Origin: Chloracidobacterium sp. N
GTDB lineage: Bacteria; Acidobacteriota; Blastocatellia; Chloracidobacteriales; Chloracidobacteriaceae
Assembly: GCF_018304765.1 (NCBI RefSeq)
Contig: NZ_CP072642.1
Span: forward strand, 231,501-295,500
Direction of reading: 5' to 3'
Length of the DNA: 64,000 bases
In this document: piece by piece, positions 4,288 to 6,972 of the stretch
Numbering within the stretch: position 1 is the first letter of the stretch
Layout of the letters: every line of letters begins with the position of its first letter
Program-made: the position numbers and the translations under genes
Notes under the pieces: model-generated
Database searches by the model: none
Told to the model about the DNA's origin: nothing
The model's input: the letters and a program-made list of their open reading frames with translations, nothing else

Positions 4288-4728
4288 TTATGCCGCCTGT
4301 CCGGTGGGGCCGGTGGAGAGTGCCGCGTGGATGTCTGCCGGCAGGCGTATGATGCGGCCCGCGTGGTTCGTCGGCAAGTGTGTCGTTTCGCCCGTGGCCA
4401 GCAGGGTGTCGTCGGTGGCGCGCCGGATGTCGTAACCAAAGACAACCTGCCGCGAGCGCAGCGCCAGCAGGCGGGTGGTGATGTGGATGTCGTCGTCGTA
4501 ACGGGCCGGCGACAGATAGCGCACCCGCGCTTCCGCCACGACAAGGCGCAGTCCGGCGGCTTCCATCGCGCGGTAGGCATATCCGCAGGCCCGGCAGTAG
4601 TCAGTACGTCCGATTTCCATCCAGACCAGATAGTTGGCGTGATAGACCACGCCCATCTGGTCGGTTTCGGCGTACCGGACGCGCAGGCGCGAAATGACAC
4701 TGGAAGGCAGGGCTGAATCCGTCGCCAT
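4288..4728 (-). CDS. Acyl-CoA thioesterase, YbgC/4-hydroxybenzoyl-CoA thioesterase family (hotdog fold)
   Basis: A 146-residue single hotdog domain. The active-site signature YAETDQMGVVYHANYLVWME is present, with the catalytic aspartate at D23 and the helix-capping YHANY. Family members hydrolyse short- to long-chain acyl-CoA or acyl-ACP in the cytosol; YbgC-type enzymes are often linked to envelope lipid metabolism. The gene starts 14 nt after the radical SAM gene and ends 30 nt before the HD gene, so it is very likely in the same transcript. Next to a lipid-type radical SAM enzyme and an Lgt homologue, a role in releasing or trimming fatty acyl chains is plausible, but this is inference. 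Confidence 0.88.
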   Translation of the reverse strand: MATDSALPSSVISRLRVRYAETDQMGVVYHANYLVWMEIGRTDYCRACGYAYRAMEAAGLRLVVAEARVRYLSPARYDDDIHITTRLLALRSRQVVFGYDIRRATDDTLLATGETTHLPTNHAGRIIRLPADIHAALSTGPTGQAA

Positions 4729-4742
4729 GGTTGCGTGGGGGG

Positions 4743-6179
4743 TCAGTGCCGCGTTGCTTCCGGCAGCGGGGCCGCCGGAGCGGCGACGCGCTGCCGCAGC
4801 GCCACAAGCTGTGCCTCGCGGTCGTCGCGGTAAAACAGGTTGAAGGTGTCGAAGGGGATGATCCGCCCGTCAGGGTGAACGATGTGGACACACGACCGCT
4901 TCACCGAGCGGATGTCGAGATTGTGGGCGTCCATAAACTGCACGATGAGAATCCGAAAGACGTTCTCGTAGCTCAGCGATGCCGGAACGTTGACCAGCGG
5001 CAGGCAGCAGAGGAGTTGTTTGAGGGAAAGCGCCTGCCCGTCCGGGGAGTGGCCCGTGGAAAACGTCCTGAACAGTTGCTCCCGAAACGCCGCCTGGTGC
5101 TCGTAGGCGATGGTGTTGTTGCCTTCGCCGGCCAACAACATCTGCGGATCAATGAGTCCGGTCAGCGGGATGATGTCTCCGCCGAGTTTCAGGGCGTAGG
5201 CCATGGCCAGACAGTCGGGATGGCAGGGAACGGGCAGGACATCCTGGGGGCGCAGCCACGGGACCTGCCGCAGCAGTTGCTGCCGTACTTCGCCCAGCGT
5301 CAGGCGGTCACGCGCCGGGTCGAAGTGTTCGGTCCGTCCGGCGGCCTGTACCGGCTGGAAGGTCACACCGCGCACGCACGGATGCTGAAGGGCAAAGGCG
5401 ATGATGTCGCCAATTTCGTCGTCGTTGACGCCCTTTTTGAGGGTGACGACAAGGGTTGTGGAGACCTTCAGCCGGTCGAGCCGTTCCAGCGCGCGCTCAC
5501 GGACGGCGCGCAGGTCCAGTCCGCGCAGGTCACAGAGGGCGGCGGGCCGCAGGGAATCGAACTGAAGGTACACCTCGAAGCCGGGCATGTAGCCGGCCAG
5601 CCGTTCGGCAAAGGCTTCGTCCTGGGCGATGCGAATGCCGTTGGTGTTGATCATCAGGTGCTTGATGGGACGGCGGCGGGCGGCATCGAGAATCCCGAAA
5701 AATGCCGGGTGCAGCGTCGGTTCGCCGCCGCTGATCTGCACGATGTCCGGCTCGCCTTCATTGCGTACGACACAGTCGAGCATGAACTCAACCTGTTCGA
5801 GGCTGCGATGGGTCGGACGATGGGGCCCCGAATCGGCATAGCAAATCGGACAGGTCAGGTTGCAGTGGTCGGTGATCTCGACAATGGTCAGGCAGCCATG
5901 CTGCTCGTGATCGGGACAGATGCCGCAGTCATACGGACAGCCATACCGAATGGGTGTGTTGAACTGCCGGACGAGTTGGCCGGGCTTCAAAAACTGCCGT
6001 TGCTGCCGGTAAAACGCGGCATCCGTGGAAATGAGCACCCGTTCACGCCCGTGCGTCGGGCAGAACTTGTGCATGAACACCCGCTCGCCTTCGATGACAA
6101 TCTTGGCCTCGACCTTCTGGAAACATGTCGCGCAGATGGCGTTGGTCAGCTCATAGAACAGGTAGGGGCGGTCAGCCAT
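4743..6179 (-). CDS. Radical SAM enzyme of the tetraether synthase (Tes/MJ0619)-like family
   Basis: The chosen ATG at 6179 gives 478 residues; a longer frame upstream would run deep into lgt. An N-terminal rubredoxin-like cysteine set (C16, C19, C40) is followed by an auxiliary cluster region GCPYDCGICPDH (C81, C85, C88, with C96), the radical SAM CxxxCxxC (C106, C110, C113; CNLTCPICYA), and SGGEP at 150-154. Then come NTNGIRIA and YLQFDSL, plus further cysteines (PCHPDC, CVHIVHPDGRIIPF). This order of metal sites and the C-terminal motif resemble archaeal Tes, which joins lipid tails by C-C bonds, and the bacterial homologues proposed to make membrane-spanning lipids. It overlaps the lgt-like gene by 8 nt. 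Radical SAM assignment is certain; the lipid role is inferred. Confidence 0.85.
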   Translation of the reverse strand: MADRPYLFYELTNAICATCFQKVEAKIVIEGERVFMHKFCPTHGRERVLISTDAAFYRQQRQFLKPGQLVRQFNTPIRYGCPYDCGICPDHEQHGCLTIVEITDHCNLTCPICYADSGPHRPTHRSLEQVEFMLDCVVRNEGEPDIVQISGGEPTLHPAFFGILDAARRRPIKHLMINTNGIRIAQDEAFAERLAGYMPGFEVYLQFDSLRPAALCDLRGLDLRAVRERALERLDRLKVSTTLVVTLKKGVNDDEIGDIIAFALQHPCVRGVTFQPVQAAGRTEHFDPARDRLTLGEVRQQLLRQVPWLRPQDVLPVPCHPDCLAMAYALKLGGDIIPLTGLIDPQMLLAGEGNNTIAYEHQAAFREQLFRTFSTGHSPDGQALSLKQLLCCLPLVNVPASLSYENVFRILIVQFMDAHNLDIRSVKRSCVHIVHPDGRIIPFDTFNLFYRDDREAQLVALRQRVAAPAAPLPEATRH

Positions 6180-6972
6180 GGGCCGGGCTTCCTTTCGCCG
6201 TGGAGTGGGCCGTTGCGGGGGCGTGGGGGAGCGTTGGTCTCCACTGACGCCACAGGCTGATGGCAGCCGCAACCAAGCCGAGCAAAGCCACAAACTGAAT
6301 GGCCGTCAGTCCGATGAGGTAAGGGAACGGACGCGGCTTGATGAACTCGATGGCGAAGCGGAAGGCGAAGTAGCCGATGAGAAACTGGCGAAACCGCGCG
6401 CCATCCGGTGCGCCGGGCAGCTTCCATGTCCAGAGCAGCCAGCCAAGCCCGGTCAGATAGAGGATTTCATAGAGCTGGGTTGGGTGGCGGCGGAGGCCGT
6501 CGCCGAAATCAACGCCCCAGGGCAGGCTGGTGGCGATGCCGCAGGTGCCGTCGGAGAGACCGGTGAGAAAGCACCCGATCCGTCCGATGGCGATGCCCAC
6601 GATGAGCGGAAAGACGTAGGCATCGCCGGTGGCCTGCGAAACGCCGGCAAAGCGTTTGGCAACTTCGACACCCAGCCAGCCGCCCAGCAGCCCGCCCACG
6701 ATGGACTTTCCCTGAAGCCAGATGAGCGGGTTGGCGCGGTGCTGCCAGTAGAGCGGGAAGACTTCCAGCCAGGCGACGAGCTTTGACCCAAGGGCCGCGC
6801 CGGCCAGGCAGCCGACGAGCGTCCAGACTGCCTGTTCGACCGTCATTCCGCCGGGTTGCCGGCGGCGGGCGCGCAGGTAGAGCCGAAAGCCAACCGTATA
6901 GGCCAGAATTTCACAGACCAGATGAATCGGAATGGTGACGCCGGGCAGCCGCAGGTCGTAGGGGAAGCTCAT
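6172..6972 (-). CDS. Divergent prolipoprotein diacylglyceryl transferase (Lgt)-like membrane protein
   Basis: A polytopic membrane protein of 266 residues with the Lgt layout. GKSIVGGLLGGWLG (88-101) corresponds to the HGGL loop of Lgt, GRIGCFLTGL (130-139) to the GRxGNFxN signature, and HPTQLYEI (163-170) is retained. The histidine of HGGL (H103 in E. coli) is valine here, and both asparagines of GRxGNFxN (N146 in E. coli) are Cys and Thr; the arginine R143 equivalent is kept. It may therefore be an Lgt paralogue that moves a diacylglyceryl or another lipid group to a different acceptor. It follows atpC by 30 nt, and its stop overlaps the start of the radical SAM gene, suggesting coupled synthesis. 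Confidence 0.82.
   Translation of the reverse strand: MSFPYDLRLPGVTIPIHLVCEILAYTVGFRLYLRARRRQPGGMTVEQAVWTLVGCLAGAALGSKLVAWLEVFPLYWQHRANPLIWLQGKSIVGGLLGGWLGVEVAKRFAGVSQATGDAYVFPLIVGIAIGRIGCFLTGLSDGTCGIATSLPWGVDFGDGLRRHPTQLYEILYLTGLGWLLWTWKLPGAPDGARFRQFLIGYFAFRFAIEFIKPRPFPYLIGLTAIQFVALLGLVAAAISLWRQWRPTLPHAPATAHSTAKGSPAHG

Follow-up and report, generated by a model that had tools for sequence, protein, structure and literature searches.

The 64,000-nucleotide stretch of the Chloracidobacterium sp. N genome analysed here (the window) carries, on its minus strand, a radical SAM gene that overlaps a gene for an Lgt-like membrane protein. What do these two genes make? The first-pass annotation proposed that, with a neighbouring acyl-CoA thioesterase gene, they form a lipid-modification module that builds or attaches membrane-spanning or otherwise modified lipids. 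In the re-derived open reading frames, the radical SAM protein P0001 (478 aa) is encoded at 4743..6179, with an ATG start at 6179 and a stop codon ending at 4743, and the Lgt-like protein P0002 (266 aa) at 6172..6972, both on the minus strand. The genes share 8 nt (6172-6179), and 14 nt separate the radical SAM gene from that of a YbgC/FadM-type thioesterase (4288..4728, minus strand); all these positions and distances agree with the annotation. In the locus comparison the thioesterase was a neighbour of the pair at Chloracidobacterium loci only, and it was therefore left out of the module, contrary to the annotation: as a genus-specific gene, it was ruled out as a component.

Relation of the radical SAM protein to Tes, Mss and TrsS

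P0001 shares with Tes (GDGT-MAS; MJ0619, PDB 7TOL, NF045702) the fold over its whole length, the domain order, the rubredoxin-like site, and the N-terminal cluster and radical SAM motifs. Its N-terminal rubredoxin-like or zinc-ribbon ligand set C16-C19-C40-H43 (6051..6134, minus strand), arranged as C16xxC19...C40xxH43, matched Pfam PF23545, 'HMPTM N-terminal zinc ribbon' (E 1.4e-15), and was invariant in 61 sequences of the class to which P0001 belongs, termed class A. The N-terminal auxiliary cluster motif C81xxxC85xxC88xxHxxH94 (5898..5939, minus strand), which reads C81PYDC85GIC88PDHEQH94, was likewise invariant in class A. The radical SAM motif C106xxxC110xxC113 (5841..5864, minus strand) reads C106NLTC110PIC113 (PF04055, E 1.4e-19), and C430VHIVHPDGRIIPF443 forms a late motif. 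A phmmer comparison with 7TOL gave an E value of 4e-60, far above chance, and the AlphaFold2 model (mean pLDDT 87) had 7TOM and 7TOL as its top Foldseek matches, at full length and with a TM score of 0.79, the next PDB match being far weaker. Among NCBIfam families, TrsS (NF045646) scored highest, with 309.9 bits over residues 12-453 (cut-off 490), while Tes (NF045702) scored 273.4 bits (cut-off 450); both values lie below the respective cut-offs. A scan of a defence-system library returned generic viperin/radical SAM matches only. The fold and the 7TOL match bear out the annotation's assignment of P0001 to the Tes superfamily; its claim of a Tes-like motif set stood in that all motifs are present in the Tes order, and failed at the decisive C-terminal residues, which differ.

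The position of P0001 was examined in a maximum-likelihood tree of 49 proteins, beside a separate quick tree of 58 rows. Class A formed a single clade with 100/100 support, and a further 100/100 branch divided Tes (MJ0619), 540-aa acidobacterial homologues and a class C from class A, a class B and TrsS. The Tes/Mss side is here defined by MJ0619, whose sequence was pieced together from printed alignments, and by residues. TrsS and class A were separate clades, each at 100/100. The annotation would have given up its reading for a protein in an unrelated radical SAM clade; what the tree returned lies halfway, a Tes-related protein in a clade apart. A basal relative of class A (L053/L025 in G193), 40% identical and near an Lgt-like gene, has Ser at the position of Tes C470.

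The residues agree with the tree. All Tes-side, class B and TrsS sequences in the comparison had Cys at C338, C455 and C470 (MJ0619 numbering), whereas in class A (n=29) C455 was replaced by Ser/Thr, C470 by Asp/Glu and Tyr459 by Ile/Phe; C338 and Met439 were not conserved. Since C338 is Cys in some members, its loss is not a class A feature. In Tes, Met439 is described as a labile ligand of the C-terminal cluster, and C338, C455 and C470 are not named as ligands (PMC9433317); a ligand role of these Cys is therefore suggested by their conservation. The Tes variants M439A and Y459F are still active (PMC9433317), so the argument that separates class A from Tes rests on the Cys and not on Met439 or Tyr459. 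In the Tes reaction, an intermediate is bonded from a lipid carbon to a cluster sulfur (PMC9433317), and on this ground class A would differ from Tes in its reaction centre.

The altered C-terminal auxiliary-cluster region of P0001 (4848..5225, minus strand) has its own pattern: Cys 319, 391, 392 and 430 (P0001 numbering) were nearly invariant in the 61 class A sequences, and Asp444, which aligns with Tes Cys470, was Asp/Glu in 60 of them. These residues may serve as cluster ligands. Because the four Cys are kept and the AlphaFold2 model is too uncertain there, we do not claim a complete loss of the cluster. Residues 352-397 were mostly of low confidence, with pLDDT below 50 over most of 372-397, and the rewired site was for that reason not judged from the model. 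Judged by tree and residues, P0001 is neither Tes nor Mss and belongs to a clade of its own on the TrsS side. With TrsS it shares this side of the tree and the Cys at position 319; it differs in that TrsS keeps the C455/C470-type Cys. Two TrsS-like genes (G274:C25 and G258:C336; L031, L032) have an in-frame TGA, possibly encoding selenocysteine.

The Lgt-like protein and conservation of the pair

P0002 is a member of the Lgt family PF01790 (91.5 bits, cut-off 24.9, E 6.7e-26), with 42.6 bits against the lgt equivalog, under its cut-off of 118.9. Using the residue numbering and roles reported for E. coli Lgt (PMC4728403), we found that R143, Y235 and R239 correspond to R131, Y201 and R205 of P0002 and were invariant in 51 Lgt-like sequences, and that the equivalent of E202, E169, was conserved in at least 90% of them. 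In contrast, H103 of the HGGL motif, proposed to bind the lipobox peptide (PMC4728403), has no equivalent: the position is V92 in P0002 and Val/Leu/Ile in 51/51 Lgt-like sequences (chain numbering in this comparison is one higher). Thus, P0002 resembles Lgt (PF01790, 5AZB) in family membership and in four of these residues, and differs in the missing His, in an altered signature motif and in its equivalog score. A Foldseek search with the Lgt-like model matched no Lgt structure, despite the clear sequence homology. The genome carries a separate Lgt (G000:C1:1943101), with Tyr at the H103 position, which makes P0002 unlikely to be the housekeeping enzyme. With the donor-site residues kept and the lipobox-binding His lost, phosphatidylglycerol would still be the donor and the acceptor something other than an ordinary lipobox.

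Where Tes is concerned, the Lgt-like partner is itself a distinguishing trait of class A. An Lgt-like gene lay near the radical SAM gene in 18/20 acidobacterial class A or related loci and at 74 of the 80 best loci of the genome collection, spanning about ten phyla; one locus lacking it (L109) lies at a contig end. The Lgt-like gene usually stands immediately 5' of the radical SAM gene on the same strand. Hosts of the pair include Paenibacillus, Brevibacillus, Bacillus, Fictibacillus, Cylindrospermum, Dyella, Pelomonas, Chitinophaga and Niabella, as well as MAGs of Planctomycetota, Verrucomicrobiota, Omnitrophota, Elusimicrobiota and Melainabacteria. Of the 396 genomes of Acidobacteriota, 20 carried a close Lgt-like type (defined as E<1e-40), 21 carried class A and 19 carried both (p 3e-29), and two of the three mismatched genomes, G354 and G015, are contig-end cases. 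In the third (G233, locus L051) the class A gene is decayed, with a frameshift near the N-terminus and C81 changed to Arg, and the Lgt-like gene was looked for and not found there, which is consistent with functional coupling. The distance matrices of the two proteins were correlated (r 0.67, reached in 0/2000 permutations), and no other gene family around the pair was conserved to a similar extent.

The pair is therefore inherited together across many phyla. The coupling that the annotation had noted is confirmed, and its spread is far broader than the annotation had indicated. Given a Tes-superfamily protein with a conserved Lgt-like partner, the annotation's broader proposal of a lipid-modification module with a role for Lgt chemistry is reasonable. 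We found no paper on the pair in the open-access literature; the module is genuine and widespread, and it seems not to have been described before.

Small membrane proteins beside the pair

In hosts other than Chloracidobacterium, genes for small membrane proteins of about 60-170 aa often lie with the pair on the same strand; they frequently overlap the stop codon of the radical SAM gene or are placed in tandem between the two genes. The proteins vary in sequence and N-terminus, some bearing zinc ribbons, and typically have a Cys towards the end of a hydrophobic helix. It follows the last Lys/Arg by 16-26 residues, with surroundings such as LLNAACFG, SLGLCG, IGLSTCG and LLLTICG. In the one family that could be aligned, the Cys was invariant while mean column identity was 31%. 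Ten representatives matched no curated Pfam or NCBIfam family.

A small open reading frame with a transmembrane Cys stood directly 3' of the radical SAM gene at 43 of 100 loci, compared with 9 of 746 control genes, which were other genes of the same loci. Under a lipobox-like criterion (16-26 residues from K/R to Cys), and with redundancy removed at 78% identity, the figures were 24/48 loci and 18/722 control genes; the p value of 3e-21 overstates the case, as do such values here generally, because the criterion was chosen after examples had been seen. The specificity check on other radical SAM genes, given below, came after that choice. About half of the non-redundant loci fail the strict form of the criterion. 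Beside Tes, Mss, TrsS, class B and class C-type genes, a small Cys neighbour occurred in 1/23 cases and at none of the other 22; at the loci checked, its absence beside TrsS genes is a further difference between TrsS and class A. The single case (L150:3046-5942, G211) is a radical SAM gene of the Tes/TrsS type that is very distant from class A and lacks the N-terminal cluster Cys. Next to it lie an Lgt-like gene and a gene for a membrane protein of 160 aa that ends in LAGTCFAIVMAYQ, so that the three-part arrangement also exists beyond class A.

Two or three tandem copies of small Cys proteins were seen at or near the pair at eight loci (L043, L094, L103, L112, L120, L046, L047, L067). In Paenibacillaceae (L079, L085, L092, L093, L095, L106, L069), proteins with zinc-ribbon-like N-terminal Cys are encoded 5' of the Lgt-like gene and end in a helix with a (T/A)(I/L)C(G/A) Cys close to the terminus; with their variable N-termini and conserved Cys helix at the C-terminus, they resemble carriers of a sorting-type signal. 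Both the repetition in tandem and the diversity of N-termini would suit a substrate more than a subunit.

In the window and at the other Chloracidobacterium loci, no small Cys protein adjoins the pair. Queries from two of the small families returned no homologue in the Chloracidobacterium sp. N genome, a result of little weight as such sequences are short. A genome of the same family (G063) encodes a related small protein away from the pair, and in Chloracidobacterium, too, the acceptor gene may be unlinked.

A proposed lipid modification of membrane proteins and its alternatives

The pair and the small Cys proteins together suggest an undescribed lipid modification of membrane proteins. Our main reading, to which we give a probability of roughly 0.4, is that the pair supplies the two enzymes for a module, mobile and widespread, by which one or more membrane proteins are modified with lipid: the Lgt-like protein would lipidate a helix Cys and the radical SAM protein would do the tailoring. 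The computations show that the pair is conserved, that class A forms a clade of its own with altered cluster residues, and that small Cys-containing membrane proteins accompany the pair elsewhere; on this basis we infer a donor, an acceptor, an order of steps and a chemistry as follows. The Lgt-like enzyme would transfer diacylglyceryl from phosphatidylglycerol to the single conserved Cys of a dedicated small membrane protein, placed near the outer end of its transmembrane helix. The positive cytosolic flank, the hydrophobic stretch and the Cys near the outer face of these proteins resemble a lipoprotein signal, which argues for an acceptor of the Lgt type. The class A enzyme, which probably binds lipid tails given its Tes fold, would then perform a radical step at its rewired C-terminal cluster site, with either the lipid or the helix that bears the Cys as target. 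In Chloracidobacterium the acceptor gene would lie elsewhere in the genome. The fuller version, a new lipidation system acting on a transmembrane Cys and possibly leaving a radical-altered or membrane-spanning lipid anchor, is more doubtful.

Is class A instead a bacterial Tes or Mss that couples lipid tails by C-C bonds into lipids of the iso-diabolic acid type, which the Lgt-like protein attaches or handles? The full-length Tes fold and the conserved rubredoxin-like, N-terminal and radical SAM motifs speak for this, as do the presence of iso-diabolic acid in Chloracidobacterium (PMC12816986) and the activity of M439A and Y459F Tes, by which losing these two residues would not in itself abolish function. 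Yet class A is excluded from the Tes/Mss side at 100/100, and every class A sequence has lost both C455 and C470, which all other classes compared retain. The genome also has a better placed enzyme. Its three Tes-like genes encode P0001 (class A), P0004 (class B, contig 2), which adjoins a methyltransferase (best family DVU_1556), and P0005 (class C; L003/L138), a 747-aa protein at G000:C1:2379448-2381025 (minus strand) that scores best with Tes (322 bits; TrsS 208 bits). Class C keeps C338, M439, C455, Y459 and C470, and has lost the Cys of the N-terminal auxiliary cluster. Matches to P0001 were found in 215/396 Acidobacteriota genomes, many of them of this long class C type. A P0005-type gene is thus a better candidate than class A for iso-diabolic acid synthesis, and P0001 was rejected as first choice for that synthase. 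In addition, the pair is present in ordinary aerobic mesophiles such as Paenibacillus, Dyella, Pelomonas and Chitinophaga, and class A was the sole close Tes homologue in the 13 non-Acidobacteriota genomes scanned, with aerobic mesophiles of four phyla among them. On these grounds we regard a Tes/Mss activity of class A as improbable, and the annotation's link of these genes to membrane-spanning lipids and iso-diabolic acid is not supported.

Two other explanations were considered. The small protein could be a RiPP-like membrane peptide, matured at or near its Cys by the radical SAM enzyme and anchored or capped by the Lgt-like one: the partners are small, fast-evolving and often in tandem with one invariant Cys, the top NCBIfam match is TrsS rather than Tes, and RiPP-lipoprotein hybrids are known (PMC12636315). 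Such DAG-RiPPs also join a modifying metalloenzyme with diacylglyceryl attachment, though through MNIO enzymes and the ordinary lipoprotein pathway instead of a dedicated Lgt-like protein and a Tes-fold radical SAM enzyme. Against maturation of this kind, which we consider unlikely, the nearest characterised fold binds lipids, neither a leader/follower region nor a maturation protease was found, and the Cys, close to the outer face of its membrane helix, is away from a cytosolic enzyme. Alternatively, the product would be a modified free lipid: the Lgt-like protein would hand diacylglycerol to an acceptor other than a protein, the radical SAM enzyme would alter a chain, and the small proteins would be structural or regulatory. 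Lgt residues for the donor are kept while the lipobox-binding His is lost, the adjacent small protein is absent in Chloracidobacterium, and this genus has the unusual lipid DGTA (PMC12816986), all of which would fit. A free-lipid product nevertheless leaves the invariant Cys of the small proteins unexplained. Moreover, to our knowledge, many bacteria with the pair are not known for unusual lipids, and we hold this explanation to be rather improbable.

If lipidation of a helix Cys is the true function, bacteria of many phyla share an undescribed lipid-modification step on membrane proteins, for which the enzymes and likely substrates can now be named. Class A is also relevant to the search for the bacterial producers of branched tetraether (brGDGT) lipids. 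Bacterial Tes homologues have been proposed as brGDGT enzymes from BLAST searches with cut-offs of E<1e-50 and >20% identity (PMC8941075), and surveys of Mss used E<=1e-30 and >30% identity (PMC13274423). With its E value of 4e-60 to Tes and about 30-40% identity to the other homologues, class A, like TrsS, may be counted as tetraether or Mss enzymes under such cut-offs. Cys at C455 and C470, as opposed to Ser/Thr and Asp/Glu, offers a simple residue filter for recognising class A in these surveys.
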